From Ustilaginoidea virens (taxonomy: Eukaryota; Ascomycota; Sordariomycetes; Hypocreales; Clavicipitaceae), in contig NC_057316.1 of NCBI RefSeq assembly GCF_000687475.1, positions 5,332,001 through 5,396,000 of the forward strand: DNA of 64,000 nucleotides. Direction: 5' to 3'. The notes beneath the pieces were generated by a model that did not search any database, was not told where the DNA came from, and worked only from the letters and a program-made list of their open reading frames with translations. The translations under genes and the position numbers were made by a program. Numbering within the stretch: the first letter of the stretch is position 1; each line of letters begins with the position of its first letter. Positions 15,290-56,304 of the stretch are shown one piece after another.

Positions 15290-16401
15290 ATGGCACAGTC
15301 TAGGCCTTCCACTTATAAGGCCACTTTGGATTCCAACTCTAAAGCTAATCTTACTGTACAACTACAGCTAGATATGGACTATATAAAGTCCCAGATGAAC
15401 ACCCTAACTATCCTTTTACAAGGCTTAGTTAGTAGGCAAAATAGTAATGTTCCTACTATTATAATTAGCAAGGAACTGGTAGAGGCTACTAGCCCTACTA
15501 TCTCCGGTCCTACTAATACGACTAGTAAGGACCCTGTAGAGGCTACTAGCCCTACTACTATTAATGCCGCTTCTATTAATAATAGCAAGAATAATTCTAC
15601 TAATAATAAGAAAAAGAAGCAGCAAAAGAAGAAGGAACAGGACTCTAATAATAGCAGCAAACAGCAAAATATCGAGTCCTTTATTATAGGCAATTATAAT
15701 ACCCAGGATACTAATATATCCTATTCCTCTTCTTCTACCACTATATCCACTGATATAAGCTATAGTGCTAAATTAGGCGGTAGGACCCCTAAGGATGCCC
15801 TCCTTTACGATACAGGCTCTACTTATCATATTGTAAATGATAAGAAGTATTTCACCACTTTTCACCATTTTGAAAAGGATGATAAGCCGGTAATTACTAC
15901 TGGTGGTAGCCCTATTTCCCCTACTAGTTGGGGCACAGCACGATTTACTGTGCTACAGGGCGTTAATCCCACCAAATGGGGTATTATAGAGCTCAAGAAT
16001 GCACTATATATTCCTACCTTGGATATTAACATTATTAGCGGTGTAAAGCACTATGCCGCTAAAGGGGTACTAATTAAAAATCAGCTTTGGTCAGCAAGCC
16101 GTAAATGCATCGGCATTTTTAACTTCGAAAAATACGGCTTTTTCCTTCCACAGAAAGGAATAGATACACCACTACTGCATCAACCTTGCAGCTACTATAC
16201 TAATAGTATAGTAGTAGAGGTCCCCAGCCCTACTAACCCTGCTAATTATAGTGATCCTGAGGAAACCACTATTACCCCCGTTCCTACTACTGCGACTAGT
16301 AAGGAACCTATAGAGGCTATTAGCCCTACTACCCAACCTTCCGCTATTACGACTAGCGAAGACCCTATAGAGGTTACTAACCCTACTCCTGCCCCTATAG
16401 C
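15290..16401 (+). CDS. Element 2 polyprotein, N-terminal part (protease region), interrupted by element 3
   Basis: The ATG at 15290 opens a frame coding for a short N-terminal segment, a Lys/Gln-rich basic stretch and a copia-type retropepsin with LLYDTGSTYHIV (Asp at about 15809). GAG-pre-integrase-like sequence follows (KNALYIPTLDINIISG). No canonical capsid or CCHC zinc knuckle is visible, which is unusual. Four related peptides recur: KELVEATSPT, KDPVEATSPT, KEPIEAISPT and EDPIEVTNPT. The open frame continues to a stop at 16564, but everything after 16401 is translated LTR of element 3, so that C-terminus is an artefact. The true continuation is at 23795 after the duplicated ATAGC. Confidence 0.85.
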
Positions 16402-16742
16402 TGTCGGAATCGCTGTCGCAAGGTGCCCAATTGGGCACATTGCGACGGATGTGCCGCGCACACCCGATGCGCACGATGTGGCCACTTTGGCCCCTTTTGC
16501 CCCTTTACCCCTGAGCCCGGTAGGGCACGCGGGCAGTCCGGCCCGACCGCGCCGAAGCACGTGACTACGGCACGCATAAAAAGGCCATATCGTGTAATTA
16601 CTCTTTTGCTTCCTTTCTTTCCTTTTAGTTAGTCATAGTTATAATCAAAGAAGTAATCATACCTTTGACTAGTGACCTCACGGTACTTGATACCACGCGC
16701 GCAACCCTACGTACAACTGGGTACCCCTTGGTGAAACCAATA
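16402..16742 (+). repeat. 5' LTR of element 3 (341 bp)
   Basis: It starts TGTCGGAATCGCTG and ends ACCAATA. It is GC-rich against an AT-rich interior and carries a perfect 16-bp palindrome GTGCCCAATTGGGCAC near its start. It differs from the 3' copy by about 15 transitions. Confidence 0.92.
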
Positions 16743-19700
16743 CTGATCAGTGAAGTTGAAGTTCACTTTATAGATTAGCTAGGACTAGCAAGAAGAGGCG
16801 ATTTAAAAAGATCGTGCTAATAAGGAACGTGATTTAGCCTAATTCAGTCGAAACGGCTTATATATTACGGACTAAGGAATAAATTAATTGTGTCTAACCT
16901 TCCCTACTCGTTTATCATAAGGAATAATCGCTAAATATTACACTGATTGATTGTGTTAGTTAGTAACGATCGCTAAATATTACGATATCTTCGGTTGTGC
17001 CGGGAACTATAGAACGCCAAATCTATCGTGATACTATTAGTAGGCATAAATGCAGGTTCTTATGCAAGCGACTTAGAGCCTTATAACGGTAAAGGACCTA
17101 TTTACCGATATACAGTCAAATAAGCAATCGGAACGCCTATAATATCCTGCCCGATTATTACTTCCTTCCTTTTTTCCTTCTTTTACTATTTATAACCTTC
17201 TTTTTATCAATTGCTTCCTTCCTTCTACCTTCTTTTTATTAATTACTTCCTTCTAATACCTATGCTAAATGCTCCCTTTCTCTCTGCCATACACACCTAC
17301 TCCTATCAATATTATAATGGAGGCACCACTACTGGAAAAGCTCAACCCTTTCGCTAAGATTATTATAAAAGACTAGATCGATTCGATAGACTAAGTTAAC
17401 CCTATAAATACTACGGACGAACAGTTATATAATCGTATTGCCTACCTCATCAATAGTTATATAATAGGCGATAAGAAGGATGATAATCTATAGGAATAAT
17501 TCCGTGAGGATTGTAATGAGTGGACTAAGGAGCTATTTAGCCGTATTAATAAATGGCTCCTATAGGAATTCTAAACAACCCTATGGGAATGTGGGGTGTA
17601 TATTAGAAGCATAAGATCATCAATAATTAGGACCCTTCTCCATTATATATAATAAGAGCATATGCCTGAATGGCCTTAAGAAGAAATAGACCTCTAACTT
17701 GCACGCAAGACCTTTATATCCCGGTTAAACCTAGATAGGGAATAATTAGTCCCTACTGCTTATACCGAACGGGAGATGTAAATGAACTAGGATGCCCCCT
17801 CTATTATAAGCTTAAGGAATTCACTTCCTGTTATAATTGTTCGAATACCCTTATAGATACCGTTATAAATACCCTTACGAACACCCTCGCGATTACCCTC
17901 GCGAAGACCTTTATAAGCCCCTTCGACCCCTAGGGACTTTGCAATACTAACGGCATAATAACCCCTTATCCCTCTATCTACGTTAAAGAAAGCCCCTATT
18001 CCTATTAATACCGAAGAAGAAAGGGGCCGGCCGCTATAACAGAAAGGGAAAGCGCCTATTTACAATAGGCCGCTATTTGAGACAGGGGAAAGCTCCCGAT
18101 AGTAATAACAGCACATAATAGACGATGACTATAGCCCGACCGACTAAATACTATACCCTAGGGGTTATACCCCTAGCCGAGCTAGCCGAGGCGGCTATCC
18201 TAATACCCCTTGGAATTATAGTATGCCCATAAGGACTAAAGGTTAGATTATAGGCCCCAATAATATGCTTTAATCAATAGAGAGCGCTAACGGCAATACC
18301 CTTGAAGTTGCTAGTGATACCCTCTAAGCTACTAATATCAATATTCCCCGATATGCCGTTACTAGCGGCACAGGGCAAGCCCCTAATATTAATAAAACAA
18401 CTGCCTTTAATACCAGATATCACGAATTATAGTATTGCAGCTACAACCTATAGGCATAAATGCCTTAACTACCGGCTTAAATGCCTATAATACTAAAGAT
18501 AGGCACGGCACTGGACCCCTCCCGGCACTATCAGCCTACCTAGGCCGATAAACGGACCGTTTTAACGGGAGGACCGGTAAACCTAGACCGACCTGGGTTA
18601 TAGGATAACCCAGCTAGAGATCCCGCTAGCCTACCGTAAGGCTACCGATAAGCCGTTCTGGAATACCCTCCGGAATACTACTAAGAAGATTATACCTGAA
18701 GAGCCTATATAGAGGCCGGGTTTGATGATATTTCGAAGAAGATATTTAACCTTTTACGTAGCTATCGTATAGAGGATAGATATAGCGGCAAAATAGATGA
18801 CTTCCTTATACTAAAGGTAGTATCCTTTAAGAGCAAGTGCTGCCTTCTAGGATTGCCCGATTATATATTCGCTAGAGCTTTTTAAATCATGCTAATTGGC
18901 GATATTAAGATATACTACTTCGATAATATCGAATGCATTCGTAATACCCTCACTTTTGACGATATGGTCCGCAAAGTTAAGAGCTATTTCGAGAATGAGA
19001 GCATAAAGCAATTCTATTTGCACCGTTGGAATAGAATAATGCTCTAATTAACTATTGCGAAATATCCCGATAAGTTAAAGCTAGAATGCCTTAATATCCT
19101 ACTAGAGGAACTTTAGCGCCTATATTATAGTCTTTTTCCCCCCTTTATAGCTGATATAGAGCTTCATCGGCAAGTGCTTAACGCTATAAGGGATATCCCT
19201 GAGTGTAGCTAGGCTATGTATCGTTATGCCTTTATATTCGAAGGCCTCGCCGCTGACCTATGGCGATCCCTTTCTATCTACGAGACTACCTATATGACTT
19301 AATAGCATTATTTCCTTTAATAGCAGCCCTAATAACATTAGGATGTTGAAGATATTGATAATAATATGGCGCTGTTTATAGACCGTAGATAAAGTTAATC
19401 TAACGATTGGCACTAACGCCCTTAACGCCGATTCGGCTCACAATAGCAGTATTAACGGTAATAATAGAATCGCGCCTTTCTAGCTAGGCCCCGTTAAAGA
19501 AGATACTTCGTTTGCAATAAATCAGGATGTTGGTTATCTAACTATACTGATAAAGAATAATAAGAATTAAAGGCATAATGGCTAAAGAACCGCTCCAACC
19601 GGACCGCCCCTAATGATAAGAAATTCTATATTTTCCTATAGGAATACGAAGGGACTGCCGATTAAGCCCTTAAAGATGCCGATTTTGATAATATTATTGA

Positions 19701-19884
19701 AGATATTGAAGTCATAATGGCAGGGGTCATATATTAGGATATAGAGGACGCTATCGCACCACAAATTACAGCCACTTAGTATTTCTAAGCCCCCCTGCAA
19801 ATAGAGGCATCACCAATTGAGATATTGCAAGCCTTATAAGATGAATTATGCCGATATGCCTTCCTGCAAATTGACCCCTTCCGA

Positions 19885-20232
19885 ATGCCCTTACTAAGTT
19901 CTGCCTTTCTAGAAGAAGAACGTTATGGTGACTATACCTTCTGTGGAATCCTCCTGGATACTAGCGCCTCTGGCCTATCTATAGTAGGCATAGGGCAAGT
20001 AAGAGCCCTAATAAGAGTAATAAAATCTTTAACGATCGAGTCAATAGATAAGCAGCATACTATTAATTTTAGAGCAGGCTCTGCCATATCTTTTGGCATA
20101 CTGAATATTCTGATGATATTCGGCAATATCCCCTTCCACGTTCTTAATAGTAGCACCCCCTTTCTCTATTCTATTATAGATATAGATAGGATAGGCGTAA
20201 AGCTAGATAATATCGATAACCTATTAATCTAA
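19885..20232 (+). pseudogene. Protease-region fragment of element 3 pol
   Basis: This is the longest stop-free piece of element 3 (115 codons). CGILLDTSASGLSIVG corresponds to the retropepsin active-site region (DTGA type, here DTSA). The downstream stretch TPFLYSIIDIDRIGV matches the segment that precedes integrase in fungal copia polyproteins. It is a relic of a once continuous gag-pol frame. Confidence 0.7.
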
Positions 20233-22602
20233 GGGAATATTAAGGTTCCAATTATCAGGAAATAGGGATATCTATAGTAGACTCTTAATGCCATAGATAC
20301 TATTGCCTTCTACCTTTTATTATAGGAAATCTATTAGCTTTATCGTCGATTCGGGCACCCCTCTATTAATAGGCTCTCTAAATTGCTTTAATGGGCTAGT
20401 TATAATAATATTGACCGCAATATCATCGAGAGCATCACCTATATATGCTATTAATGCTAAATGAACGCAAAGGCACCTAGCCGATTTAAATTCATGCTTA
20501 AGGATGACGATACTAGCTAATTTAATTATGAGATTATCGTTGATATCCTTTATATTAATAATCGGCCGGTATTACATATTGTGGATGCCGCGATAAGCTT
20601 CTAGGCAGCTAGATTTCTTGATCTATAAAGGCAGAAGGCCTACGATATTTGGAATGCCCTTAAGGAATGCTAGATTGATACCTATTTTGGCCTACCGGAT
20701 TAGATAGTCTACGATACCGGACTAAACTTTACTTCCGCTGAATTCCGTTATAATGCCCGGCTTCTATCTATCAATATAGATAAAATTCCTATAGAAGCCT
20801 ATAATAGTATTGGCAAAGTCGAAAGATACTACGCCCCATTACGCCGAGCCTATACTATTATTGACAACGAAATAGGCGACCTAATAATAAAGGAATAGAA
20901 ATTATAGCTTGCTATAAAGGCTGTTAACGATTCTACTAGACCTAACGGTTTAGTGCCTATATTATTGGTCTTTAGGGTATATCTTCGACTCACAGATAAT
21001 TCACCCCCTAGCTTATTAGTATTATAATGCGCCTTAACGTTACGAAAGGCTATTGATAAAGTTAGGAAATGCCTTACTAAGCGATAAGTTTATAATGCCT
21101 TCGCCTAATGGAACGGCCCGAACATATAGCCTATCTACCGACTACCCCTATAGTTAGACGTATGGGTATAGAGAGAAAAGGGTGGATAGTATAGGCCGTA
21201 CCAGCTAATCAGCCTTAAAAGTGAGACCTATATCGTATAGATGCTATATAGCCCGGTTAAGTTCCGGTTAACGGTCGTTAAGCCTTATAACTATAACCTT
21301 GATAGCGATCCCGCTGCCGATAATCCCGAAGATATCGTCTATGCCGAAGGACTAGCCCGCCCTAGCAGACTAGAGGTCAGGATACCGGCTGCAGCCCTAC
21401 CGCTAGCATATGTGATATCCGACGTTATGATTAATAAGGACTAAGAAGAGGCTCTCGTCAATGCTATCGCTTCTAATACCGTTATTAACGCCTCTTTCCT
21501 AACCGCTAAAGAGTAAGCCGACTTATAGCTTGCTAGCTAATTACGCTGGGAAGGCAAGATCACAACCCCTAGAGACCCTTTTAAGTAGTCGGACCATATA
21601 GAGATTGAAGCATTATAAGCCCGTAATATGTTCCGATTTATCACCTTTAATATCGGTTAATATAGAGCCTAACGCCTGTTTAACTTACGTATAGTACGAG
21701 AAATCAAGGGCAAAGGCATGGATATACCGTACGAGAAGTCTAGGCTTATTATTTAAGGGCATAATGATGATAAAAAGCGATTGATATTGACTTAGTCCCC
21801 TATAATTCAATGGGCGAGTTAATGGCTACTAATATCAATAGCCCCATTACTATAATAATCTTATGGCCTCTTCCTTTAGATATAGGACATTATATAAGCT
21901 TACGTGCAGTCATCAACTACCCTTAATAGATCGATTATCGCTAAGCTACCTAAGTAGATAGCGTATTAATACCCCGATAATACTATCATGGAAGTAGTGA
22001 AGCCACTATATAGAATAGCTAAGGCAGGCACCCACTAGTAGGCGATATACTTCCAGCACTATCGCGAAAAGTTGGGTATAACTATATCAACCTATAACCC
22101 CTGCTTGCTGATATCCACCGGTAATAACGATACTGATTATACTAATGCTCCTGACCGCGATACTACCATATGCTTCGGTATCGTGGGTATGTAGACTGAC
22201 GATACCCTCGGCCTAAGTGACGATGCCTTCTTCTAATGGGAAGAATTAGAGCTCACTAAGGCAGGCTTTAACGCCAAGCCTAAGACGAAGCTATTACCAA
22301 CTATACCCCTAATATTCAACGGGTATATACTAACGGCCAATGCTAACGGTATAATATTATGCTAGAAAGGTTAAAGTAAGAAGATCGCGACTATCGATAA
22401 GAATGCACCTACGGCCTAGCATAATTATGTCGAATAATGCGCTCGCGGTGCTTATGTAGCTACGGTCTGCTAGCCTAAGGCGTCTTTCGACCTGTCCGTC
22501 GCGGCATAATATTAATAGCCTAATCCTGAGGATATCGCGAGGTTGAATAAGCGCCTTCAATAGCAGCACGATAACCAGGATCGTGGCTTATAGTATATCA
22601 AT

Positions 22603-22824
22603 TTGGCCCTTACCACAGCTAAGATCTTTATATTTGTTAACGGATCCTTTGCCAATAATAAAGATTTAAGCTCCCAGATTGGTTATGTGATTGTGCTAGG
22701 GAATGAGGCAGATACTGCGAATAACGCCTTCCAGCTGACCGGTAATATTATTACTTATAGCTCTATAAAGAGCAAGCGGGTAATGCGCAGCGCACTCGCT
22801 TCGGAGCTATATAGTATGGTATAA
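22603..22824 (+). pseudogene. RNase H fragment of element 3 pol
   Basis: A stop-free window of the degraded RNase H domain: KIFIFVNGSFANNKDLSSQI, then IKSKRVMRSALASELYSMV, the conserved Glu-bearing helix. Flanking sequence in the same frame continues the domain, interrupted by TAG/TAA codons. Confidence 0.7.
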
Positions 22825-23448
22825 GGGGTCGATATCGTATATGCGATAGGCACGACCCTTAATATGATTACTAGTAGGCTGGGATTGCTAAAGATCCCTA
22901 TAGTTATGTATATGGATTCGTTTTTGCTATACGAATGCTTAGTTAAGCTAGGCACTACTAAGGAAAAGAGGCTCATAATAGATATTATAGCCCTACGACA
23001 GTTATACGAGCGCCAGGAGATTTATAAGATCTGTTAGATTAATGGAAATAACAATCTCGCCGACGCAATAACTAAGGGAACGCCTAATAAAGCCCTTAAG
23101 ACCTTCGTCGACCAAAATAAGGCTATTATACGTGTGGAAGGGTGGGTAAAGAGGTCGGTTAATGTCTGACTGCGTTTGGAAGGTATTAGTGATATTATGG
23201 GTGGCAAGTGTGTGGATTTTCCTATATTTAATGTTGTGTGCAATATTGCCCCTTTTCTGCCCCTTTGTTTTGGCTGCGATATTCAATATACCGGCTATAC
23301 GGTATGAGCCTGTATAAGCCGGCCGCGCGGCGCGATGGCGTTATCGGCGGCACAACCTGCCGAGACCGCGCCGCACTTTTCTTTCTATGTGTGCGCCTTA
23401 CATCCTAGCGATTCCGATGTTTGCTTCTATAAAAAGAGAAGCTGCTAG

Positions 23449-23789
23449 TGTCGGAATCGCTGTTGTAAGGTGCCCAATTGGGCATATTGCGACGGATGTG
23501 CCGCGTACACCCGATGCGTACGATATAGCCACTTTGGCCCCTTTTGCCCCTTTACCCCTGAGCCCGGTAGGGCATGCGGGCAGTCCGGCCCGACCGCGCC
23601 GAAGCATGTGACTACGGCACGCACAAAAAGGCCACATCGTGTAATTACTCTTTTGCTTCCTTTCTTTCCTCTTAGTTAGTTATAGTTATAATCAAAGAAG
23701 TAATCATACCTTTGACCGGTGACCTCACGGTACTTGATACCACGCGCGCAACCCTACGTACAACTGGGTACCCCTTGGTGAAACCAATA
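23449..23789 (+). repeat. 3' LTR of element 3 (341 bp)
   Basis: Same length as the 5' copy. A CpA to TpA change breaks the palindrome found in the 5' copy. It is preceded by a GC-rich stretch (about 23308-23380) unlike the rest of the element. Confidence 0.92.
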
Positions 23790-23794
23790 ATAGC

Positions 23795-26700
23795 TGCTGA
23801 TATAGAATATCAGAAGCTATTACAATTAGCCGGCATTTGGCATGTACGGCTAGGGCATATAGGTATTCAGCTACTTAAAAAGACCTGTGCTAATACCCCT
23901 GGTCTTCCTAACCTTAATAAGGTTAAAGATACTGATTTTCGCTGCCTAGCTTATATTCAAGCTAAGAAGGTTAGAAAACCTTCTAAGGATGCGATACCTA
24001 ATCCAGCTAAATGCCTGGATATTATAGAAGGTGATACTTTTGCTATATCACCTATGCCATACAACAAACGACCTGTTGCCCTTATATTAGTGGACAGAAA
24101 ATCCCGATTCCGTTGGCTTTACTTACTGCCTAATAGGGAAGGCACTATTATTTTTAAAACATTACAGAGCTTTATACAGAGCCTACAGGTCAGATATAGT
24201 AAAACGCCTATTGAATTCCACTATGATGGTGGAAATGAAATCAACAAAATGCTTAGTGATTGGCTTATCGAACAGGGTATAACTTTTAATACATCTTGCC
24301 CTTATATTCACGAACAAAACGGCCTAGCTGAGCGCTCCATTAGGGTTATAGCTGATAGGCTACGTGTTACTATGGCCTGGTCAAGGCTATCATCTAACCT
24401 CTGGTCCGCTATAATTACTGGCGTTGTTATGCTAGTAAATATAACAGCAGTTACTAACAGACCTTCTAGCCCCTATCAGGAGCTACTAAAGGATTACGAC
24501 CAGATAACACCGGAGCACTACCCTGACCTTATTAACCTTAGGGCTATTGGAGCAGCTATTGAAGTGCTTATACCACACGAAAAGCGTGTAAAAAGCCGCA
24601 AATTAGCGCCCCATACCGAGCCTAGTAGGCTCCTTGCCACTCTAGGTAATAATACTTACCTAGTCTACCTTCTAAAGAAGAAGGTTGTTACTAAAACAAC
24701 TTTTATTACCTTTATTCATCAAAATGAAGGTATAGGCCCTATTTCTACTGGCCTAGAAGGAGACTTTCACAGAGGGCAAAATACAGGTTCAGAGGGGGTA
24801 TCTAGCAGAGAACCTGCTATTTTACTGGATGACCTTAAAAGCATGCCGGACCCTACTAACCTTACTAACATTACTAATACTAATGTTATACCGGATGACC
24901 TAGAAAGCATGCCGGACCCTACTAATTTTACCAGCGTTACTAACACTAATGCTACCTTGGATAACCGTCCTATAATACAGTCCCCGGCTACTGCAAAGGA
25001 TGACCTTATAGATATCCTTACTAGCCTTAATCCTACCGACCTTACTGGCCCTACTGGCCTAGCTGGCCCTACCGACCCTACTGGCCCTACCGACTTATTC
25101 CCTCAGGAAGGTAATATCTTACACCACCTGATATGGGATTCCTGCTATGCAGCTAAGCGTAAGCTAGCTAAAAAGGCCCCCGATGGTACGCCTAATAGCT
25201 GGAAGGATGTGCTACGAAGCCCTGAAAAAGACCTTTGGATAAAGGCATTATTTAAGGAATTTAAGCAGCTATTGGATACTAAAGTCTTCCAATTTATTCC
25301 TAAGTCTAGCGTTCCTATTGATAGGAAAATTATACGCAATAGGCCTGTTTTTCGGGTTAAAAAGGATTCTAATAATCAGCCTATAAAATATAAGGCTAGA
25401 TTAGTTGTTAAGGGCTTTATGCAAGTCGAAGGAAAGGATTTTCAGCATACTTATGCTTCTACCTCTATTCCACCTACCTAGAGGGTTATACTGGCTGTGG
25501 CTGCTAGTAATAACTGGGAAATAGAGCAAATTGACTTTATAGGTGCCTTCCTAAATAGCGAACTTTCTGAGACTATTTATATGGATATCCCTGACGGATT
25601 TCTTGAATTTACGGAAAGTCTACTAACTGATAGCAAGCTTTGGTCTAATATACAGCGCTAACGGCTACTAACTTTGCTTAAAGAAGCTGGATTTAACCCT
25701 TCTATTAAGCAAGCTATCTTACTAAAGAAGGCCTTATACGGGCTAAAACAAGCACCCCGCGAATGGCAACACCGGCTAAAAGACCTGATTTCTAGTGAAG
25801 GTTTTTTACCTTTAGCTTCTGATGCTGCCGTCTTTTATAATAAGCAAACCAGCACCTTTATCGTCACCTATATTGACGATTGCCTATTAGTTGGTCCAAA
25901 TATAACTTATATTAACCAGCTAAAAAGGAAATTCTATAAGGTCTATGCTATAGAAGACCGCGGTCCGGCTTCCTTCTTCCTAGGCGTACAGATTATACGA
26001 AATAGGAAGGAAGGTTTATTGTGGCTACACCAAGCCCAATTTATAGCAGAGGTCTTAGCTAAATTCGGCTTACAGGATACTAAACCTCAGCTTATTCCAC
26101 TTCAACCAGGGATTCTAAATGAATCTAGTGGAAAAGACCTTAGCCTTACTGATCAGAGCCTTTATCAGAGCCTTACTGGCACTATAATGTGGCTTATAAT
26201 AATGACTAGACCCGACCTAGCATTTCCTACCCAATACCTCTTCCGGTTTATGTCCAAGGCAACTAATGTACATCTAAATGCTGCGAAAGGCAGTTTTAGC
26301 TACCTTAAAGGCACTGAGAACCTAGCTATTTGCTTTAGTACTACTAAAAGCAACCAACAGCCTATTATAACCGCTTATTCTGATAGCGACTTTGCTGGCT
26401 GTAAAGAAACCTCTAAATCCACTGGAGGCTTCTTGACTACTATTAATAGTGGTCCTATTAGCTGGCGTTTTAAGCGAGCCTCTTTAGTAGTGCTATCTAC
26501 TTTAGAAGCTGAATCTGATGCATTGCTTGAGACTATCCGTGAGGTACAGTGGCTTTCTAACCTTTGTAAGGAGCTAGAAATTGATATTTTACGCCCTATA
26601 CCGCTATATTGCGATAACCAGGGCTCTATTTCAAATTCTAACGACCCTAATCAGCATGCTCGCACTAAGCATACACTATTAAAATTCCGGTATATTAGGG

Positions 26701-26834
26701 AGCAAGCCCAGCTGGGCTTAGTGAAAATTACCTACTTACCTACTAATAGTATGCCTGCTGACGGCCTTACTAAGCCACTGCCGGGCCCTAAATTTACTAG
26801 GTTCCGCGAGTTACTAGGTCTTAGGGCCTGCTAA
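23795..26834 (+). pseudogene. Element 2 polyprotein, C-terminal part (integrase, reverse transcriptase, RNase H)
   Basis: Continuation of the element 2 frame beyond the element 3 insertion. GAG-pre-integrase: IWHVRLGHIGIQLLKK. Integrase core: LILVDRKSRF, FHYDGGNE and GLAERSIRVIADRL supply the D, D and E residues. In the zinc-binding part the second CxxC cysteine is Tyr. A Pro/Thr-rich linker carries repeats of DDLxSMPDPTN and GPTD. Reverse transcriptase follows: ARLVVKGFMQVEGKDF, then LYGLKQAPREW and catalytic TYIDDCLLVG (YIDD, 25869-25880). RNase H: TAYSDSDFAGCKE and STLEAESDALLE, ending near 26834. Two nonsense codons break it: TAG at about 25480 and TAA at about 25660, both explicable by C to T in a CAG or CAA codon. 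All other catalytic residues look intact, so the pol is only recently inactive. Confidence 0.88.
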
Positions 26835-26951
26835 CTTATACTAACTTACTAAGGTTTTTCCTCTGTTTTTCCTTAGCACTTTTACTGCATTTTCTTTCCC
26901 TATCCGTTATACGACGATTAGCTTGCTACTACAGTAGCTAATCAGAGGGGG

Positions 26952-27704
26952 TGTTAAAATCCTATAGTAGCCTACTAGGCTGCTGGCCTAATGCCCTACT
27001 GGCCTACTAATCTTCTGGCCCTTATACCGCCTCTTGGACTTACGGTAGTCTTACCAACCTTAGGCCTTTGCCTTTTACCTTAAGGATTTTCAGTGGATTA
27101 TTTACTGTATATCAAGTAAGGTAGGCCTTGTTAAAAAAAAAGGTGTGGCATTGCTAAATTAGCGTGGTTGCCTACTAGCGTGGTGGCGGCCTACTAGCGT
27201 GGTGTGGCATTGCTAAATTAGCGTGGTGGCCTACTAGCGTGGTGGCTAGTCTACTAGTGTGGTAGTTAGTCACTAGCGTGGTGACTAATTACTAGTGCGG
27301 TGGTTAGGGTGGTTGGAAAGGTCGGATATAGCGGGGTTGCTGACGTATTATAGCGAGCATTACGGGGAGCCTTCTTACTGGCTACCCTGGATGCCTGGGC
27401 CCACCCCTTCTTTGTGTATATATAGGATAGCTTTCCCCCTTCTTTCTAGATAGTAGAAGGGCAGCACAATCGAGTCTGTTAATGCACTACATGCCTCTTA
27501 ACTTCCACCTTCCCTGCGTTTTCTGGTTATCTTATATTTGCCTTGCCTTTACACTTGCCCTACTTTATAGCACTTGTATAGTCTTAGGACTTGGTGAAAA
27601 ATCTAGTATTTATACTAAGATTAGTTCATAGGTCGCAGACAGTCTTATGCCATCTAGCTAGCTAGTAAGGCTCTGCTTTTATAGTGACCTTTAGAATTGC
27701 AATA
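26952..27704 (+). repeat. 3' LTR of element 2 (753 bp)
   Basis: Same boundaries and length as the 5' copy, with 8 transition differences and no indels. It is followed by the target duplication TATAT and then by element 1 sequence. Confidence 0.93.
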
Positions 27705-30700
27705 TATATATTCTAGGGATATTTATTAATATTTTTTCCGAATTATTAATAAAGAAGAAAGGATTATATTAGAACACTAAGACGGATAGAATTTACCTTA
27801 GGAAAGGAAGAACACAAGAAAATATCTTTTAGATCTACCGAATTAAAGAGAAACCCTGCATTCTGTATCAGGTAGGCGGAAACGATATGCCTGCAAGCGA
27901 ATTTCTCACGAGGGCTCGGAATTTTAGAGAAGAAAAGCCTTAATATGCCTATTTAGCTCGAGGAGATAATCGCCAGCTGAAGATTTCGATAAAAACACCT
28001 TATACTATATGGCACGCCCGATTTAGGCACCTAGGAAGGGATCCGATAGATTATATCTTTAAGGATATATTAAATATGCCTCCTAAGCAGGCAAAATCGG
28101 ATTATAAGGTTTATAGCAATATGAAAATTATGCAGTAGATTTCACGATGCCCGTAAGAGGCATTAATGCCTTAGGAACCCTTTAAGGTCGTATCTTTTAA
28201 CCTTTTCGTATAATCACCTGCTTTTAACGGTAATAAATATATCGTATTATTTACCTGCCGATTTATAGGAATAAGGTCAATATTTACGATACTTAGGAAA
28301 TCAGACCTTCCGGGTTATTAGCTAACCTTCGAGCATTAGGTTCTACGCCTATATAATATGAAAATCGCGATAGTCATCTCTGATAATAAAATAGCGCTCT
28401 AGATATTATGAAGTCGGAAAAAAGCTAAGCAGAAAGGCATTATGCTTTAGTTATTAAGCCCTAGTTACTAATATTAGAACGGTTATACTGAACGTTCTAA
28501 GGGGGTATTAAAGACGAAGATATTACTTCTAAGCATATAAGCAGGATTCCCTAAGGATCTATGGCCTATTACGGCAGAAGCAGTAGTATATCTATTAAAT
28601 TGTATGCCTTGGAAATTATCTTATGATAACTAGAAATCGCTACTTTAAATCCTTTAACTTTGGCTTTAATAGAATCGGCCTGCCTAGGGATATCTACCGG
28701 AAGATATACGCCCTTATATTTACTACCTTTGCGCTTACAGATATAAGGTCTATATAATGACAAGGGATAGGATATTACGCGCCGGTCTAAAGCTTAATCA
28801 GAGGGCTTATATTGGCTATTTAGCAGGATATATCTCTATAACCTAGTATCTGATTTAGGTGCCTTCGTTAAAGAGAAGCTATTAGTTTAACTTAAGCCAT
28901 ATTACATTTAATAAGACGATCTTCTATAAGGATAAGGAATAGTTGCCGATACTAGCTAAATAGAAGGAGAACCTAAATACCTTTATTAGTAATATAGAGG
29001 AAACCCCTATTATTAATAACTTTAAGCTTATTGCATCGGGGAATCTAATTGAGAACCCCTTTACTAATAAGGTTGCCCCTAAATAGGGTACGGATAAAGC
29101 TATCGATCAGGGCATTACGCTAATTAATGCGATTAAAGCTGTTAATAATGCCCCTCAACCTACCGCTATTGACTTAAAGGTTATAGACTACCCCAAAGAG
29201 TCGATCGCTTAAGTATTACTTCTATTACTACTATTTTCGCCTGAGCCGGACGATTAGACCGAGCCGATGCCTCCCCTTAATAATATATTCTATATCAGGG
29301 TTAACAATATTAAAAGGAAGGATCATAAGGTCTTTACGGCAGCTATAATAAAGCTGTTAGCTATAATAGAAGCCCTTTATATTACGAATATACCTAAAGA
29401 GCTGGCAATATAAAGAGAGCTTTGAAAGCATCCTAAGCGCAAAGAATTTATCGCTACCGCCAAGGAAGAATACAGTAAGGTCACTAATAGGGAGATTAAG
29501 TATATTATTTATCGGAATGATTTATCTATAGACCCTAAGATCAAGCTATTAGACCTAAAGTAGGTGTTCGCCTATAAATAGGACTAAGATAGCTTCCTCA
29601 CTGGTTATAAGGCCCGATTATATATTCATGGTAATTAATAACCTTTCAACCTTTATAATACCCAGGCTGCCGCGCTCGCAGTATATACTTTTCGCCTCCT
29701 AATAGCCCTAACGTGTTACTTTAACCTAGATATGCACTAATACGACTTTATTATAGCCTTCCTAAATGTGCCACTTAATAAGACTGTCTATTGTAAGCAG
29801 TCTGATGGATTTCATAATAGTTATTTATATATTAAGCTATTACGTGCCCTTTATAGGCTTCAAAGGTCGCTATTACTATAATTCAAAGAGTTATTACGAT
29901 TCCTAATAGAAAGGGGCTTTATATAGGTCTATAAGGACCCCTATATCTTTATTAATGATACCCTTATCGTATTCTTCTATATAGATAACCTAGTCGTCCT
30001 ATACTATAAGTCACAAGCAAAGGCATTTAAGTTATTTTATACTACATTAATAGGCGCTTTCAAAATTAAGGACCTCGGCGAGTTATATTAGTTCCTAGCG
30101 ATTGAGGTTATTCGCGACCGTATAGAAGGGAAGCTATAGCTTACCTAGAGGGCGTACTTCGATAAGCTCGCGATTAAATATAACCTCACCTCTTTTGACA
30201 GAAAAGAACCCCCTAAGCACCCGTTAAATGCCGCAAGACTTAAGAAGTATAATAGAATGGCTGAACCTAATAATACTTAGCGATACCAGTTAATGGTAGG
30301 ATTATTAGTGTATCTGATTATAATTACTAGGCCTGAACTGGGTTATATCGGATCGCAGCTTTCCCGCTTCCTTTAAAATCCTAGTCTAGACCATTTGCGT
30401 GCGGTAAGGAAGGCCCTTAACTATGGCTATACTTGGAAGAATACTACTATTGAATTCAGTGCCGATAACCCGGAAATACAGGCATATTCAGATGCATCCT
30501 TTGCTAACGATATTATATCCCAATGCAGCTCATAAGGATATATAATCAAGCTATTTAGTGGCCCGATTGTATATAAAGCTGGTCAATAGGATACTATAAC
30601 AACATTATCTATAGAGGCTGAATTGCTAGCGATTTTATATACCGCGAAAGAGGTTATCGCGTTCCGTAGGCTATATAAGGAAGTTAGGCTTCATTTAGTA

Positions 30701-31316
30701 TAGGATGTCCCTATTATTCAGTGCGATAACATCTAGACTATTCGCCTATTGAAGGAAGAGTTTTTCAAACTAGTAACCCGGCTCCATCATATTGATATTC
30801 ATTATCACTAGTTGCGGCAAGAAGTCTAGAAAGGCTTTATTGATATTATATAGGTTCCCATAGGTAATATAATCGCTAATGGTTTTACTAAGCCCCTAAT
30901 AGGCTAGAAATTCGAAACCTTCCGCCATTAGCTAGGGCTAGTAGTATTAAAAGGCTCCCGCGATGCTAGGCAATCTTACGATATTCGTCGTGATATTAAG
31001 GAAATACCTTATAAAGAGGATAATAAAGATGCTCATCAAATAGATTAAAAGATGCATTTCAACAGCCGCATATGTTTTCCTATATGGACCTAAATTTTAT
31101 GGTTTATTGTTATTTTCTATTGTCTTTTATATTCCTTATAACGATACATATGAATAGGGGCATTTTTTACCTCTAAGGGTTATTTTCAATAATAGCGCCT
31201 CTACCGCTCTTCTTACTACGGTATAATGACTTCTATAGTTCTATTTACTATCTTATTTTCTATAGGAATTAGCTATATAGCAGGATATGCTCGATAAAGC
31301 ATATCCTGGGGGGGTG
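27705..31316 (+). pseudogene. Element 1 pol relic (integrase, reverse transcriptase, RNase H)
   Basis: Reading through stops on the + strand gives WHARFRHLGRDPIDYIF (GAG-pre-integrase), an integrase stretch (NGNKYIVLFTCRFIGIRSIF), and reverse transcriptase pieces: GYKARLYIHGN, IIAFLNVPLNKTVY, LLRALYRLQRS and FFYIDNLVVLYYKS (YIDN in place of the usual YVDD). RNase H pieces are AYSDASFANDIISQC and TTLSIEAELLAILYTAKE, and the end reads GFTKPLIG. Dozens of TAG/TAA codons sit where CAG, CAA or TGG are expected, the RIP pattern. It was interrupted upstream by element 2. Confidence 0.85.
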
Positions 31317-48930: not shown

Positions 48931-49635
48931 TCAATCCGTTGCCCTGTATTTTTGACGATACTCGCCGAGGCGCTTGACATCATCCTCGGAAGCAAAGCTT
49001 TTTATGCCCTCAAGAATGTCATCAAGAGTGAGGATCGCGAAGATGGGAATGCCGTATTCTTTCGTCAACTCGCCGATCGCGCTGGGACCAGGCTTGGAAT
49101 CGTCACTATCAGCAGCAGGAAGCTTTTCCATGCGATCCAAGGCTACGATTATGCCGGTAACAATACCACCCTGCTTTGTGATCTTGTCAATGGCTTCTCT
49201 CTTTGCGAGTCCAGCTGTGATGACATCATCGACGATCAGAATCTTTTTCCCCTTCAGGCTGGCGCCTACGATGCTGCCTCCTTCACCGTGGTCCTTGGCC
49301 TCCTTCCTGTCGAATGAGTAGGAAACGGTATCCAGGTTCTGAGGAGCAAGCTCGCCAAGCTTGATGGTTATGGCGGAGCAAAGAGGGATTCCTTTGTATG
49401 CCGGGCCGAAAACTATATCAAACTCGAGGCCAGCATTCTGCTGGGCATCCAATATCGTCTTGGCGAAAGCGACAGAGATGGCACCAGCCATCCGAGCAGT
49501 GTGAAATTCACCAGCATTGAAGAAGTAGGGAGAAATTCTCTTCGACTTCAACTCGAAGTTGCCGAATTTTAGCACACCGCCATTGACGGCCGCCTCAAGG
49601 AACTCTTGCTTGTACGGGGCGAGCTGACGGGCCAT
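48931..49635 (-). CDS. ura5: Orotate phosphoribosyltransferase
   Basis: Cytosolic enzyme of de novo pyrimidine synthesis: orotate plus PRPP gives OMP plus pyrophosphate. Single exon, 234 codons, usual length for fungal Ura5. The N-terminus [20 protein letters not shown] is followed by [19 protein letters not shown] (orotate-binding part). Next come [13 protein letters not shown], the flexible catalytic loop [19 protein letters not shown] and the PRPP-binding signature [17 protein letters not shown]. The C-terminus reads [12 protein letters not shown]. All catalytic residues seem present. The start ATG at 49635 is the only sensible one. Confidence 0.97.
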
Positions 49636-50519: not shown

Positions 50520-50925
50520 TATCCCCCCAACCACATGGACCTCGAGAAAGAAAGCACCAAAACATTATAGTTGATGATGATTTGAACTTCTTGGTCGTCA
50601 TTGACTGGGAGTTTCGCTCAAACCGCTCCTTGGCAAGTCAATCACTATCCAATGCCATTTCCATTTCTATGGCCAGATGACAGGATCAAAATGATGCTAA
50701 ATGATGCTCAGCACCTCGCGCACAAGCATATATCACAACAGGCCGATGCAAGGCAGTTAGATGTATTGCAGGAAGTTTCGGGAAGCCGAGGCAAGGCTCC
50801 AAGAGGAAGGAGTGACTCTTGGAAATCGAGTTCGTAGAGGTCCTGGAAAGTGCAGCGTCTCGGATCTATGCTTGTTTCTCTAGGCTTGGAGACTTGCCGG
50901 AGCAAGACGAGGGCCATACCCCTCA
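50520..50925 (+). pseudogene. Aminoglycoside phosphotransferase (APH)-like kinase, pseudogene fragment
   Basis: C-terminal half of a fungal APH-family (protein-kinase-like fold) protein, broken by at least three frameshifts. Frame a (50555-50614) gives HQNIIVDDDLNFLVVIDWEF: the Asn and Asp of the catalytic loop and the IDWE metal-binding motif. The continuation AQTAPWQVNHYPMPFPFL is in the next frame from about 50616, so one base is out of register there. Further on, RLQEEGVTLGNRV (about 50790-50830) and EVLESAASRIYACFSRLGDL (about 50838-50900) lie in other frames. The order of pieces is that of an intact homologue. Substrate unknown; fungal genomes hold many members of unknown role. Decay sets it apart from the intact neighbours ura5 and nog1. 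Confidence 0.65.
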
Positions 50926-50970
50926 TTCCCACCCTCTCTCGTCGAACTGATCATCATTCCACCTCAATCG

Positions 50971-51198
50971 ATGGCGCCATGGCTTCTACAAAAGCGAAGA
51001 AACGAGACAGTTTCTGTCGATGCAATCGCCGCTATGTACGATGCCGAGCTTGGACTATTCATGAAGAAGCATCGCCTCCCCGATGGCGGTTACGAGCTCC
51101 CCATTGATGGGCGGGACAAGCTGTCGAAGCACGAGCGCAACTGTCTCGCGCAACCGTCTCGCCGAGAGGTTGAAGTGCGTCCCCTTAGATATATCTAG
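50971..51198 (+). pseudogene. Unclassified coding remnant
   Basis: Open frame with protein-like composition: AAMYDAELGLFMKKHRLPDG, ELPIDGRDKLSKHERN. In the adjacent frame RLAERLK follows, suggesting a frameshift around 51150. I do not recognise the family; possibly a helical C-terminal tail of a larger lost gene. Low confidence. Confidence 0.3.
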
Positions 51199-51349: not shown

Positions 51350-52222
51350 TTAGTCGAAGATGCCCCGCCCGCCGTACTGATTCCTGATGTGTACCGCGGA
51401 CGTGCCAGACCCTTCGCCTCAACGGAATCCGCTAGGTTCGCGGTCCGATCTGCGATACCCGTGCCACGAGCTAAGGCAGTCTCGCTCCAATCATTCCCGA
51501 CTCGCACCTTTGCCCTCTCTTCACCCTTGATATGCTTTACATAGTGTCTCCCCGCGATTCCCTGAATCTTCTCGGTAACGGCCTCGGACAAGACACTATC
51601 AGTACCGGCAGCGGCGTCCTGCAGAACCTTTAAGCTCGGCTCGTCGACCACCTCGTCAATTCCTAGCTCCACGAGCTTGCGAGGCGTGGTCTTCACGGGA
51701 GATAGCTTCTCCAGATCATCCACAAATCCCGTAATTGGCTCTACCAGCTTGTCCAAGTTCTTGCCGTCACACAGCGCCCACGCCGCCTTCTTCATCAGGC
51801 CCGTTCGCTTATGTCTCTGGCGAGCGACAACCCCCCAGTCGGCCGTGCAGTCCCCGAATCACCGGCGGCATGTCCTTGTCTTCGAAGCGCATCAACTCAT
51901 CTTGGCTGACAATGATCTCGTATCGCTTGGATGACTTCTGTACGGTCTGGAAGAGCAGCCCGATCTCTTCTAGTATCGCTTGGACCTGTCGAGAATCTCT
52001 GTCGTCAGGCGCGTCGGTGGCAAAGCGTGGGTCATCGTTGATCGCGAGTGTCTCGCCCCATGTGCCCAATCGGATATTGGCCACGTCGAGTTTCAGTTGG
52101 CAGCGTTCGAAGTCTCGGCCGAAATGGCGGCTCAGTTGGATGTATTCGAAGCAGTCGACGCAGTTGTTGAACAAGGCCGCTACGCTCAAAGCGCCGGCCA
52201 CGGTGCCAAAAACTTCGGCCAT
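51350..52222 (-). pseudogene. HET-s/HET-S-like heterokaryon-incompatibility prion protein (HeLo plus amyloid domain), frameshifted
   Basis: Relative of Podospora HET-s/HET-S. In that family the N-terminal HeLo domain is a cell-death effector that acts at membranes when the C-terminal prion-forming domain adopts a beta-solenoid amyloid. ATG 52222 begins MAEVFGTVAGALSVAALFNN, followed by CFEYIQLSRHFGRDFERCQL and RYEIIVSQDELMRFEDKDM. At the C-run 51831-51836 the frame shifts by one. The second frame carries MKKAAWALCDGKNLDKLVE and then the first amyloid repeat, EERAKVRVGNDWSE (about 51522-51480). Near 51400-51414 an opposite shift returns to the original frame, which encodes the second repeat (AVHIRNQYGGRGIFD) and stops at 51350. 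End to end that is 290 codons, essentially the family length. Without correction translation stops early, at about 51797. Whether both shifts are real needs read support. It is divergent from a broken NACHT gene, 198 bp between ATGs. Confidence 0.85.
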
Positions 52223-52420
52223 GCTGGTCGTGTGAGGCGAATTGATGCGAGATTTTCTTGTGTCCGAGAGGAGCCTTTTGGTGCGGGCTGCGCCGCGTGA
52301 GGAGTTGGTACGGTTGACGAAAGAAGGCATCTCAGTGGTTCACCCAAGCGCCGTCCGCAACCAACTCCGAGCCTGCTCAGCCCGGGCAGGAAAGCCATTC
52401 TGGTCATCACCAATACCACA

Positions 52421-53079
52421 ATGGCGTCAGTGAATAACAACAAGCACATGGCACGACCAACGGCATGACCAACAAACCTCGCCCGGAATGTGAACGCCGA
52501 TGGCGAAAGCAGAATTCAGGTTGGAAACAACTACACTCAAGTCCACAACTACAACGAACCGAACCCAATCGATGCATTGCCGACCTACGATTGACTGACC
52601 CCCGCGACGACAAGAGGTGCATCGAGCAGACAAAGGGGGGCCTTCTCAAGGACTCGTACGGCTGGATCCTCGACAACGACGATTTCCAGCAATGGCGCAA
52701 CGACGAACAGAGCCGACTGCTCTGGATCAAGGGCGATCCCGGAAAGGGCAAGACCATGTTACTCTGCGGCATTATCGACAAGTTGAAGAAGCAGACCGCG
52801 AATCTAGTGTCCTACTTCTTCTGCCAGGGCACCACCGACTCGCGCATCAACAACGCAATGGCCGTGCTACGTGGGCTCATTTACCTACTCGTCGAGGAAC
52901 AGGAATTGCTCATCCCCCACGTGCAGAAGAAGTACAATGACCTGGGCAATCGGTTGCTAGAGGATGTGAATTCGTGGTGGGTCTTATCCGAGATCTTTAC
53001 AAATATTCTGCAAGATCCGAACTTGAAGAGCACCTTTTTGATCATCGACTTGCTCGACGAATGTGTTACGGATCTGTAA
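52421..53079 (+). pseudogene. NLR-type NACHT protein with N-terminal HET-s-like amyloid motif, broken and truncated
   Basis: Relic of a fungal STAND/NLR receptor like NWD2, which in Podospora is the neighbour and activator of HET-S. Frame 52421 starts MASVNNNKHMARPTA, then an in-frame TGA at 52466 (a CGA to TGA change would explain it). It continues NVNADGESRIQVGNNYTQVH (52487-52546), a 21-residue-class amyloid motif of the HET-s repeat type. A one-base frame change between about 52556 and 52577 leads into the second frame: CIADLRLTDPRDDKRCIEQT, then WILDNDDFQQWRNDEQS. Walker A is LLWIKGDPGKGKTMLLCG (about 52723-52770) and Walker B FLIIDLLDECVTDL. Homology ends at 53079 right after Walker B: the rest of NACHT and any WD40/ANK repeats are missing and a different remnant follows. 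Three lesions (nonsense, frameshift, truncation) mean no functional receptor. Confidence 0.82.
52499..52555 (+). other. Amyloid (HET-s-related, R0-type) motif
   Basis: Encodes DGESRIQVGNNYTQVHNYN. It matches the pattern of the two repeats in the adjacent HET-s-like gene: charged residue, alternating hydrophobics, then G-N. In the known systems this N-terminal motif lets the NLR template amyloid folding of the effector. Here it lies downstream of the TGA at 52466. Confidence 0.75.
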
Positions 53080-53352
53080 CGCCGCCTCTAAGTTGCTTGC
53101 GAATGATACCCCGTCCCTGGGTGGAATATTCGGCATATTCGCCCCTTGCCTTGCCGAGAGCGTGTCTCCCGAAGGCCAGAATGGCGTCGGGCAATCGTCA
53201 TTGTACTGATAGGCCCATACATACATATACTAGTCTTGCTGCCCACGCATGTCGTTGCCCAGATGGATGACCTCCCGGTATGGTAGAGGTGCGCCACAGC
53301 AAGCGGTAAACGCCTGGTATTCAACCTCGGCGATTAGATCAGCAGTGGGCAT
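53080..53352 (-). pseudogene. Unclassified coding remnant on the minus strand with an in-frame TAG
   Basis: From ATG 53352 the frame reads MPTADLIAEVEYQAFTACCG, APLPYREVIHLGNDMRGQQD, a TAG at about 53232, then YMYVWAYQYNDDCPTPFWPS and GANMPNIPPRDGVSFASNLE. It then runs into antisense of the NACHT remnant. The composition (Trp, Cys, Pro, few rare residues) looks like real protein on both sides of the stop. I do not recognise the family. The junction with the NACHT fragment at about 53080 suggests a rearrangement breakpoint. Confidence 0.4.
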
Positions 53353-54017
53353 TGGCTCTCTTGGCCTCCATGAAAAGAAACGTAGTTCCAGAATTTGGTT
53401 GTGGCCCACTCCGGCTTATGCTGGACTTGGTCACAGAGTTTCTTGAGCTGAGGTGTGTTGATTTGAGACATGATGTGGCTTTCGTGAAGGGGATGGATGA
53501 ATAAAGGACGAGAAGATGCAACGTAACGCTCGCTGTTAGAGGATGTGTTTGCTGATGGGCTATTACCGCTGTTATATGTGTGCATACTCTGTACATCTGC
53601 GCCATGTTGAAGATGCATCAGTTCATGCATCATTTTGGGAACTTGACTCTCCTCCTTATAAAGCGCGCGGTTAAAGAAGGACATGATTTTAGTGACCACG
53701 AGTGCATAAGCGTGGAACAGTTCCTGGGATAAGTCGTAATGGAGTTATAACTTGTTGGTATGATGTGGCGCGTGATCTTCGGCAGCCATTGGATGCTGGC
53801 GATTTATCGATAGGCCGTTTGCCCCCACCAACCCAAAAAAAAAATTGTGACCGCCTTGGATTGGCATGCCATGCCATGCCATGCCATGCCATGGTCGCTT
53901 AGGATTTGGTTATCCCCAGCCAGCAATCGGCAACCGTAGTGTCCACTGCGTCTCATTTTTCGTCGCCTCTTTTTTTCTTTCCCCTCTCTTTCTCTTCAGG
54001 AGCCCCGATCGCCCAGT
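53353..54017. other. Intergenic region before nog1
   Basis: It contains a minus-strand open frame (53334-53699) with KMMHELMHLQHG, which resembles an HExxH zinc-protease motif, but no other support exists. A (GCCAT)n repeat (53863-53893) and the C/T-rich nog1 leader follow. No gene I can support. Confidence 0.45.
53863..53893 (+). repeat. (GCCAT)n microsatellite
   Basis: Six tandem 5-bp units upstream of nog1, about 125 bp before its start codon. Confidence 0.85.
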
Positions 54018-56304
54018 ATGAAGACGACTTGGAAGGATATTCCTCCTGTTCCCACTCAGCAAGAGTTTCTAGACATCGTGCTGAGTAGAACGCAACGCAA
54101 GTTACCGACGCAGATTCGGGCTGGATTCAAAATTAGCAGGATTCGAGGTATGGCGGCGACGCGGGGGGTTCATGAAGCCTTCTCGTGTGCAAATCACGAA
54201 GCTTGCTGCAGTTTGCGGTTCTCGCTGACAAACTGGCCCAGCTTTCTACACCAGAAAGGTCAAATTCTCCCAAGAAACTTTCTCGGAAAAGTTCGGCGCC
54301 ATTCTCGAGAGTTTCCCGAGGCTGCAGGACATACATCCTTTCCACAAAGATTTGCTCAACACTCTATACGATGCCGACCACTTTCGTATTGCCCTCGGCC
54401 AGCTCTCGACGGCGAAGCATTTGATTGAGACCATTTCCAGGGACTATGTGCGACTGCTCAAATACGGCCAGTCCCTGTTCCAATGCAAGCAGCTCAAGAG
54501 GGCTGCGCTTGGTCGCATGGCCACCATCATCAAGCGCTTAAAAGACCCGCTGCTATATCTTGACCAGGTCCGGCAGCATCTGGGGCGTCTCCCTTCCATA
54601 GATCCAAATACCCGTACATTGCTCATTTGTGGCTATCCCAATGTGGGCAAGTCCAGTTTCTTGAGAAGCATCACTAGAGCCGACGTTGATGTCCAACCGT
54701 ACGCCTTTACGACCAAGAGTTTGTTTGTGGGCCACTTTGACTACAAGTATTTACGATTCCAGGCCATTGACACCCCTGGAATTCTGGATCATCCCCTCGA
54801 GGAGATGAATACTATTGAGATGCAAAGGTAATGCCCAAAATAGCAAAACTCATCGCCAAGCTTTCACCCTTTCTTTTTTTTCCTTTTTTCCTTTTTTTTT
54901 TTTTGGGTTTCTCGTGAGGTGTGGAGTAAATGTTGACGCGCAAAATTAGCATCACTGCCATCGCTCATCTTCGATCCGCTATCCTCTACTTCATGGATCT
55001 TTCAGAGCAGTGCGGGTACACCGTCCAGGCCCAAATCCAGCTCTTCAAGAGCATCAAGCCGCTGTTCTCCAACAAGCTGGTCTTCCTGGTCGTGAACAAG
55101 ATTGACGTCACTCGACCCGAAGATCTGAGCCCCGAGCTACAGGCTGAGCTGGAGGGGTTGGTCAAGTCGGACAACGTTGAGATGCTCCAACTCTCCTGCA
55201 ACACGCAGGAGGGTGTACAGGAAGTCAAGAATTCCGCTTGCGAACGTCTCATCGCCGAGCGAGTCAACCAGAAGCTCAAGGCCGGTACCAGCAACGACGG
55301 TGCCATCGGTGGGCGACTGGCAGACGTCATGTCCCGCATCCACGTCGCCACACCCATGGACGGGCAAACTCGCGAGACGTTCATCCCCGACGCTGTGAAG
55401 AGCATGAAGAAGTACGACAAGCAAGATCCGCAGCGCCGCAAGCTGGCGAGGGACGTCGAGGAGGAGAACGGCGGCGCTGGTGTCTACAGCGTCGACATGC
55501 GCGCCAACTATATCCTCGACAACCCCGAATGGAAGTACGACGCGATTCCCGAGATTTTTGACGGAAAGAACGTCTACGACTTTGTCGATCCCGACATCGA
55601 GGCCAAGCTGGCCGCCCTCGAGGAGGAGGAGGAGAAGCTGGAGCAGGAAGGCTACTACGACTCGGAAGAGGACCTTGGCGACGACGATGAAGCCGAGGTT
55701 CTGAGAAAGGCGGAGCTCATACGCGAGAAGCAGCAGCTGATCCGGAACGAGGCTCGCATGAAGAAGAGGCTCAAGAACCAGGCCATCATCCCCCGCAAGG
55801 CCGTCAAGAAGACGTACTCGGAGCTCGAGGATGCTCTAGACCAGCTGGGCGTCGACACCACCCACCTGGCCGACCGGGCGCAGCCAAAGGAACCCCGTCG
55901 CGGCCGCTCCATGTCCAGGAGCCGACTGGCCACCGAGGACGGCGAGGCCATGGACGTGGACCAGAGCGCCCGAGACCGCCTGCGCGCTCGATCCAAGAGC
56001 AGGGCACCCACCACCAACCGCCGCGAGGACGGCGTGGCGGACGAGCTCACCCGGACAAAGGCCGAGCGCATCGCCAAGCTCAACCAGAAGAGGATGAACC
56101 GCATGGCTCGACAGGGTGAGGCCGACAGGCACACCACTGTCTCTCTTGAAAAGCACCTGGTAAGATGTCCTCCCGCCCCGAACCCTCCCCCCCTCGTCCT
56201 TGCATTCTTACTGTTCCGTGTCATGCCGTCTCATGTGGACCCGCGCTGACTGTTGCTCGTAGTACTCTGGCAAGCGCGGCATGGGCAAGACGTCCAGACG
56301 ATGA
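54018..56304 (+). CDS. nog1: Nucleolar GTP-binding protein 1 (60S ribosome assembly GTPase)
   Basis: Essential OBG/HflX-superclass GTPase (TRAFAC) that binds pre-60S particles and occupies the peptide exit tunnel and A-site region during maturation. Exons are 54018-54147, 54242-54827, 54950-56159 and 56263-56304, giving 655 residues. Introns (94, 122 and 103 nt) all have GT-AG ends and keep the frame. The N-terminal helical bundle starts [20 protein letters not shown] and ends with the FYTRKVKF stretch. G1 is GYPNVGKSS at about 175. The rest of the G domain reads [15 protein letters not shown] (G2), [20 protein letters not shown] (G3) and VVNKIDV (G4). The NOGCT region follows, then an acidic coiled coil ([24 protein letters not shown]) and Arg/Ser-rich repeats ([21 protein letters not shown]). 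The tail is [13 protein letters not shown], a lysine-rich end typical of Nog1. Intron 2 carries poly-T/TC tracts. All G motifs are intact. Confidence 0.96.

Follow-up and report, generated by a model that had tools for sequence, protein, structure and literature searches.

Evidence that Ustilaginoidea virens carries a het-S/nwd2 pair, with canonical HET-s motifs, decayed to pseudogenes

A stretch of 64,000 nucleotides from contig C1 of Ustilaginoidea virens UV-8b (Clavicipitaceae, Hypocreales; genome of 37.16 Mb in 8 contigs), hereafter the window, was found to contain what we identify, with high confidence, as a het-S/nwd2 pair that has canonical HET-s motifs and has decayed to pseudogenes. 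The het-S/nwd2-type system itself is already known, and the U. virens copy is a decayed member of it that appears to be dead and mis-annotated. The locus represents a prion-signalling cell-death module with both partners lost, in a plant-associated fungus, the agent of rice false smut.

The pair sits between two housekeeping genes, ura5 on the minus strand and nog1 on the plus strand; the exact name ura5, given in the original prediction for the PF00156 gene at 48931–49635, is presumably right. The features of the locus, in coordinates of the window, are as follows:

48931–49635, minus strand: flanking gene ura5 (name presumed; orotate phosphoribosyltransferase), open frame; PF00156, E 3.2e-12; start read from the sequence
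51350–51415, minus strand: third piece of the het-S-type gene, again in the first frame, with the end of r2, the C-terminus and the stop; residues 268-288 of P0003, 86% identity
51371–51438, minus strand: amyloid repeat r2, in two frames; first half 18.7 bits, second half in the other frame
51409–51834, minus strand: second piece of the het-S-type gene, in another frame, with the C-terminal part of HeLo, r1 and half of r2; residues 130-271 of P0003, 82% identity
51484–51546, minus strand: amyloid repeat r1, 21 residues; 32.4 bits with the relatives-only motif profile
51833–52222, minus strand: first piece of the het-S-type gene, with the start codon and the N-terminal part of HeLo; residues 1-130 of P0003, 89% identity (tblastn)
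52223–52420, no strand: intergenic stretch of 198 bases, with a start codon on either side and the two genes divergent
52421–52468, plus strand: NLR start codon and 15 codons, then an in-frame stop ahead of r0 (three-frame translation)
52475–52537, plus strand: amyloid motif r0, 21 residues, in the frame of the ATG and past the stop; PF17108, E 1.5e-6; 27.4 bits in the motif scan
52558–53079, plus strand: NLR linker and NACHT, in another frame than r0 and ended by a stop; PF24883, E 5.7e-30; PF05729, E 1.2e-9
54018–56304, plus strand: flanking gene nog1, encoding a nucleolar GTPase and containing introns; PF17835, PF01926, PF06858 and PF08155; ends placed by eye

The start codons of the het-S-type gene (52222, minus) and of the NLR (52421, plus) are divergent and 198 bases apart, which reproduces the predicted spacing and gives the adjacency of effector and NLR that characterizes a het-S/nwd2 pair. 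The likeness to Podospora in gene pair and polarity was likewise confirmed: in Podospora anserina a two-repeat HeLo protein is also encoded divergently from an NLR with one motif (PMC3321046, PMC4344463), although there the frames are 0.6 kb apart (PMC4344463). In the 2012 species set, the het-S homologue always adjoins a STAND gene whose N-terminal motif matches its own, and the pair is divergent in Podospora and some other species (PMC3321046); in a larger set, an adjacent NLR is given for 98 of 155 HeLo-related proteins (PMC4518210). In view of this published adjacency and divergence, the layout in U. virens is the published one, the difference being that both partners have been lost. In contrast to the Podospora genes, both U. 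virens partners are broken and the NLR lacks everything past the middle of its NACHT domain.

All three profiles proposed for verifying the pair, HeLo PF14479, HET-s PF11558 and NACHT PF05729, gave matches. On the minus strand, the expected HeLo domain with two amyloid repeats was recovered over the Pfam cut-offs in two frames. The frame with the ATG at 52222 matched PF14479 with 115 bits (E 4.7e-33, profile positions 1-129 of 205) and the second frame with 45 bits (positions 136-205), against a cut-off of 23.2, and the second frame also matched PF11558 with 70.9 bits (E 8.9e-20, positions 1-57 of 65; cut-off 32.2). Chains of the ‘small s protein’ in PDB matched both frames, with 182 bits for 2wvn in the first piece and with 92 bits for 2wvo and 32 bits for 2kj3 in the second, so that the predicted HeLo fold is settled as far as sequence matches to PDB go.

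An intact protein of 288 aa from Dactylonectria estremocensis (P0003) spanned the minus strand from end to end as three colinear pieces in two frames by tblastn. Therefore, the het-S-type gene retains its whole content and is interrupted at two points, in HeLo and inside r2. Both r1 and r2 are present as predicted, but r2 itself is divided between two frames. As regards the features of the HET-S/HET-s family, the HeLo domain and the two-repeat prion-forming domain were found and a single open frame was not; with three pieces in two frames, the gene is a pseudogene of this family and not a functional member. The closest sequences are HET-s homologues of Nectriaceae (P0003 and P0004-P0008 from Fusarium spp.), with 83-89% identity in HeLo and 78-81% in the C-terminal part of HeLo and the prion-forming domain. 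These homologues have 288 aa and are unbroken; the gene of U. virens, by contrast, is in pieces and shows more changes at otherwise invariant columns. Position 1 of r1 is H here, compared to N in nine and I in two of the 11 full-length relatives, and position 17 of r2 is R, compared to G in all 11.

On the plus strand, the predicted NACHT domain and third amyloid motif were both detected, with the corrections that a stop lies between the in-frame ATG and r0 and that the NLR stops in the middle of NACHT, with no later part detected downstream. The NACHT frame matched PF24883 (NPHP3_N) with 105 bits (positions 3-137 of 164) and PF05729 (NACHT) with 38.7 bits. Compared to NWD2, the single N-terminal HET-s motif is there, the NACHT domain is there in truncated form, and C-terminal WD40 repeats are absent. 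Six longer NLR sequences (P0031, P0032, P0035, P0040, P0103 and L022), all of which extend further, matched the window by tblastn only to 53076, which indicates that the remainder of the receptor is gone. Accordingly, neither the longer NLRs nor their WD40 parts showed homology at E below 0.1 from 53077 to 62.5 kb, and the WD40 parts of L022 and L023 gave only chance-level matches (E above 0.7) between 53080 and 62.5 kb. WD40 matches at 62.5-63.8 kb were considered as the lost end of the NLR and rejected, as they lie beyond nog1 and form part of another gene.

The order of motif, short linker and NACHT was found in P0032 from Fusarium oxysporum and P0033 from Ilyonectria robusta, with about 72-73% identity in NACHT; in them motif and NACHT belong to one protein, whereas in U. 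virens they lie in separate frames. When compared with the window, each matched with its NACHT in one frame (E 3e-80 and 3e-78, respectively) and its motif in the other (E 0.004 and 0.03), and P0103 was likewise divided between two frames (NACHT E 1e-67, motif E 5e-4). The stretch from motif to NACHT is common to the window, P0032, P0033 and P0103, the last retaining only the end of the motif. The shortness of P0032 and P0033 (256-258 aa) is due to the limit on protein length in the search, in which the candidates were proteins of 117-371 aa only and 120 of 828 relatives of the NACHT piece were listed. Among these 120, an N-terminal HET-s motif scored above 10 bits in four (P0126, 26.4; P0069, 18.6; P0047, 13.3; P0094, 12.1) and more weakly in three (P0032, 8.4; P0033, 5.9; P0127, 3.6), and P0126 was the one with PF17108. 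The original prediction would have been weakened by intact NLR relatives devoid of the motif; the outcome was mixed and does not refute it, most of the listed relatives having other N-termini. The NACHT part belongs to a large family in which N-termini are of various kinds, so that the pair's family is named by the motif and could not be named from NACHT by itself.

The relatedness of the three motifs was assayed with a profile of 14 distinct 21-residue repeats from 11 full-length intact relatives, excluding U. virens. The repeats were picked by a pattern requiring G17-N18, and P0014 and P0015 contributed r1 only, their r2 having G17 but not N18. A scan of 245,014 six-frame positions, comprising the window and 15 loci, some of them overlapping, gave four places above 5 bits: r1, r0 and the first half of r2, which ranked first, second and third with the scores listed above, and a place in L002 (9.7 bits). 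In Pfam terms, r0 reached 28.4 bits with PF17108 (cut-off 24.3) and 17.6 bits with PF11558, below its cut-off of 32.2. Its alignment with r2 of P0003, with 50% identity over 20 residues, is weak alone (E 0.15), and r0 alone matched no HET-s chain in PDB at E<=1, the one match being by chance (E 0.76). Compared with the consensus given in PMC3321046, r0 agrees at N1, V6, G10, R13, I14, V16, G17 and N18, and has A at position 3 rather than a large hydrophobic residue. In canonical pairs r0 is reported to be closer to r2 than to r1 (PMC4518210).

That the HeLo protein and the NLR could be unrelated neighbours, with r0 arising by chance, was weighed against these data. The shortness of r0 (21 residues), the other N-termini of most listed NACHT relatives and the fact that 4 of 14 control genomes gave chance matches to the PF17108 model at E<=1, none over the cut-off, speak for such a coincidence. 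Nevertheless, r0 is over the PF17108 cut-off and is the sole PF17108 match in the genome, it holds its second place with a profile built without it, it occupies the position directly before NACHT, like the motifs of P0032, P0033 and P0126, and the published rule of the family is that the two genes are neighbours and their motifs match (PMC3321046), so we assign this reading a negligible probability. More generally, a chance origin of the matches was ruled out by the Pfam matches, the genome-wide searches and the motif scan.

Two further explanations concern the frame changes of the het-S-type gene. The UV-8b model UV8b_01234 (P0011, 231 aa) matches part of the window at 100% identity and omits exactly the stretches with both frame changes, of 46 and 131 nt, as predicted introns with GT..AG ends. 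As this model stands in public databases, the gene might be thought alive and remodelled, its two introns yielding a 231-aa HeLo protein with a partial amyloid domain. We consider this very unlikely: in P0003 and other intact relatives the omitted stretches code for protein, neither intron has a CTRAY branch site, the model of a second U. virens record (UVI_02037020; P0002, 147 aa) differs, and the adjoining NLR is broken too. In UV8b_01234, the two frame changes are thus masked by introns that lack plausibility. Assembly errors in a pair that is intact in the fungus would be another source of frame changes, small indels being, as general background, common errors in long-read assemblies; this is extremely unlikely, since the loss of the NLR past mid-NACHT is unexplained by indel error and P0002 shows the same off-frame end of r2. 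The UVI_ prefix of its locus tag presumably denotes strain IPU010. P0002 starts downstream of the first frame change in HeLo, and this start fits a real lesion there rather than a sequencing error, without being proof; P0002 has one difference from UV-8b in 129 aligned residues, S in UV-8b and F in P0002, P0003, P0004, P0006 and P0012.

The preferred reading therefore remains that of a decayed pair. The prediction that both genes are broken was upheld by locating lesions in each, and both are pseudogenes because of the two frame changes in the het-S-type gene and, in the NLR, the stop before r0, the frame change after it and the loss past mid-NACHT. As a caution for users of databases, UV8b_01234 and UVI_02037020 appear to be pseudogene-derived gene models. 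We infer the order of decay and the present-day inactivity of both remnants.

In the intact state, and by analogy with Podospora, the binding of a ligand to the C-terminal repeats would have caused the NLR to oligomerise via NACHT; the clustered r0 motifs would then have adopted the HET-s beta-solenoid amyloid fold and templated r1 and r2 on the effector. The HeLo domain of the latter would in turn have permeabilised the membrane and led to cell death. The two genes may thus once have worked as one signalling module, as their Podospora counterparts do (PMC4344463).

Sequence constraint was compared at the columns invariant in 10 intact homologues, at which UV-8b was altered in 4 of 64 (first part) and 8 of 56 (second part). 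When each of the eight Nectriaceae rows was left out in turn, 0-4 of 64-68 and 0-4 of 56-60 columns were altered, with at most 5 of 125 combined; of the two more distant rows, Coleophoma had 9 of 73 and 10 of 66 altered, and Monosporascus 7 of 71 and 14 of 70. The excess of changes in UV-8b may fit relaxed constraint and is suggestive only, because U. virens belongs to another family and near twins shield some of the Nectriaceae rows. RIP was rejected as a cause of the decay, as the pair has TA/AT of 0.58 and 0.49 and GC of 57% and 52%, like the flanking genes (ura5, TA/AT 0.42 and GC 52%; nog1, 0.52 and 56%). Regarding the length of the HET-s homologues, 11 of 28 have the full length of 286-297 aa, and 17, with both U. 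virens rows among them, have less than 270 aa; P0009 from Dactylonectria macrodidyma also seems to finish off-frame in r2. P0009, P0012, P0024, P0026 and P0028 may reflect repeated gene breakage in the group, or poor models or fragments.

In the rest of the genome, PF11558 matched only at this locus (two candidates scored; none of 14 control genomes matched), as did PF17108 at E<=1 (three scored), a model of 23 positions. Thus, no intact HET-s-type pair was found in the genome with these two profiles, nor any second HET-s-type effector or motif. PF14479 gave three matches (four scored; 0 of 14 controls), two at this locus and the third on contig C2. This third match (L002:1483-3399; C2:1556519-1558435), the one HeLo match outside the locus, heads a longer gene, the later part of which seems, by eye only, to hold a kinase-type domain. 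NPHP3_N gave seven matches including this locus (24 scored; 9 of 14 controls matching, 5 over the cut-off), NACHT five (26 scored), NB-ARC two pieces in one frame (8 scored) and HET ten (12 scored), the counts for large families being lower bounds; PF17111 matched neither in this genome nor in the controls. Few NLR domains were found in the UV-8b genome. For reference, a survey puts the mean at 46 STAND proteins for the 122 strains having any and the number of NLRs per species in Hypocreales at 78, both obtained by methods other than ours (PMC4986451).

When 3801 bases comprising the pair and its surroundings were searched against the genome at the DNA level, no duplicate emerged; the only matches were the locus itself and, restricted to the NACHT part, a HET-NACHT-WD40 paralogue with 68% identity. 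This nearest NLR paralogue (L022:882-5229; C1:1861381-1865728; PF06985, PF24883, WD40) lies in three overlapping frames that by eye leave no room for introns, and it may be a second decaying NLR.

With respect to origin, 28 homologues of the HeLo/prion-forming piece were obtained in a search limited to 95-303 aa. Two of them are from U. virens, none carries another Clavicipitaceae name and three lack a species name; the named genera are Dactylonectria, Fusarium, Thelonectria, Ilyonectria, Mariannaea, Coleophoma and Monosporascus. In the first trees, part A was built from 17 rows and part B from 22, with P0002, P0009, P0012, P0016 and P0017 left out of part A only and P0011, P0018, P0023, P0024, P0026, P0028 and P0029, which are fragmentary or model rows, left out of both; the second trees comprised 10 of the 28 homologues plus UV-8b. 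It is possible, though we think it improbable, that the pair came horizontally from a Nectriaceae-like fungus as a linked module and died in a fungus that dropped most NLR-based self/non-self cell death. The absence of any other Clavicipitaceae name among the homologues of that size range speaks for it, as does the identity of 89.2% that the decayed HeLo part retains to D. estremocensis, to which the intact Fusarium nematophilum is equally close. As a clade of the eight intact Nectriaceae rows without U. virens was not rejected by the AU test (p-AU 0.224 and 0.216) and the trees are unresolved, descent with losses elsewhere fits equally well. With this locus, a comparison of strains and relatives could address whether receptor and effector decay jointly.

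A literature search found no paper naming the locus tags of both gene models or the two neighbours, and among the papers listed for U. virens with NLR or incompatibility (15 of 179 and 10 of 27), none dealt with this locus, judging by titles and the opening lines of abstracts. The other coding remnants that had been predicted nearby were not borne out, as none of five flanking frames had a Pfam domain at E<=0.1, and the sole protein match of the flanking frame 50887-51195 was its own UV-8b model. Minus-strand frames at 53200-53744, between the pair and nog1, lack a Pfam domain; they may represent a small gene that is unannotated, or nothing. Finally, an AT-rich block at 12000-31000, with TA/AT of 1.37 and about 40% GC, carries a RIP signature, unlike the rest of the window.
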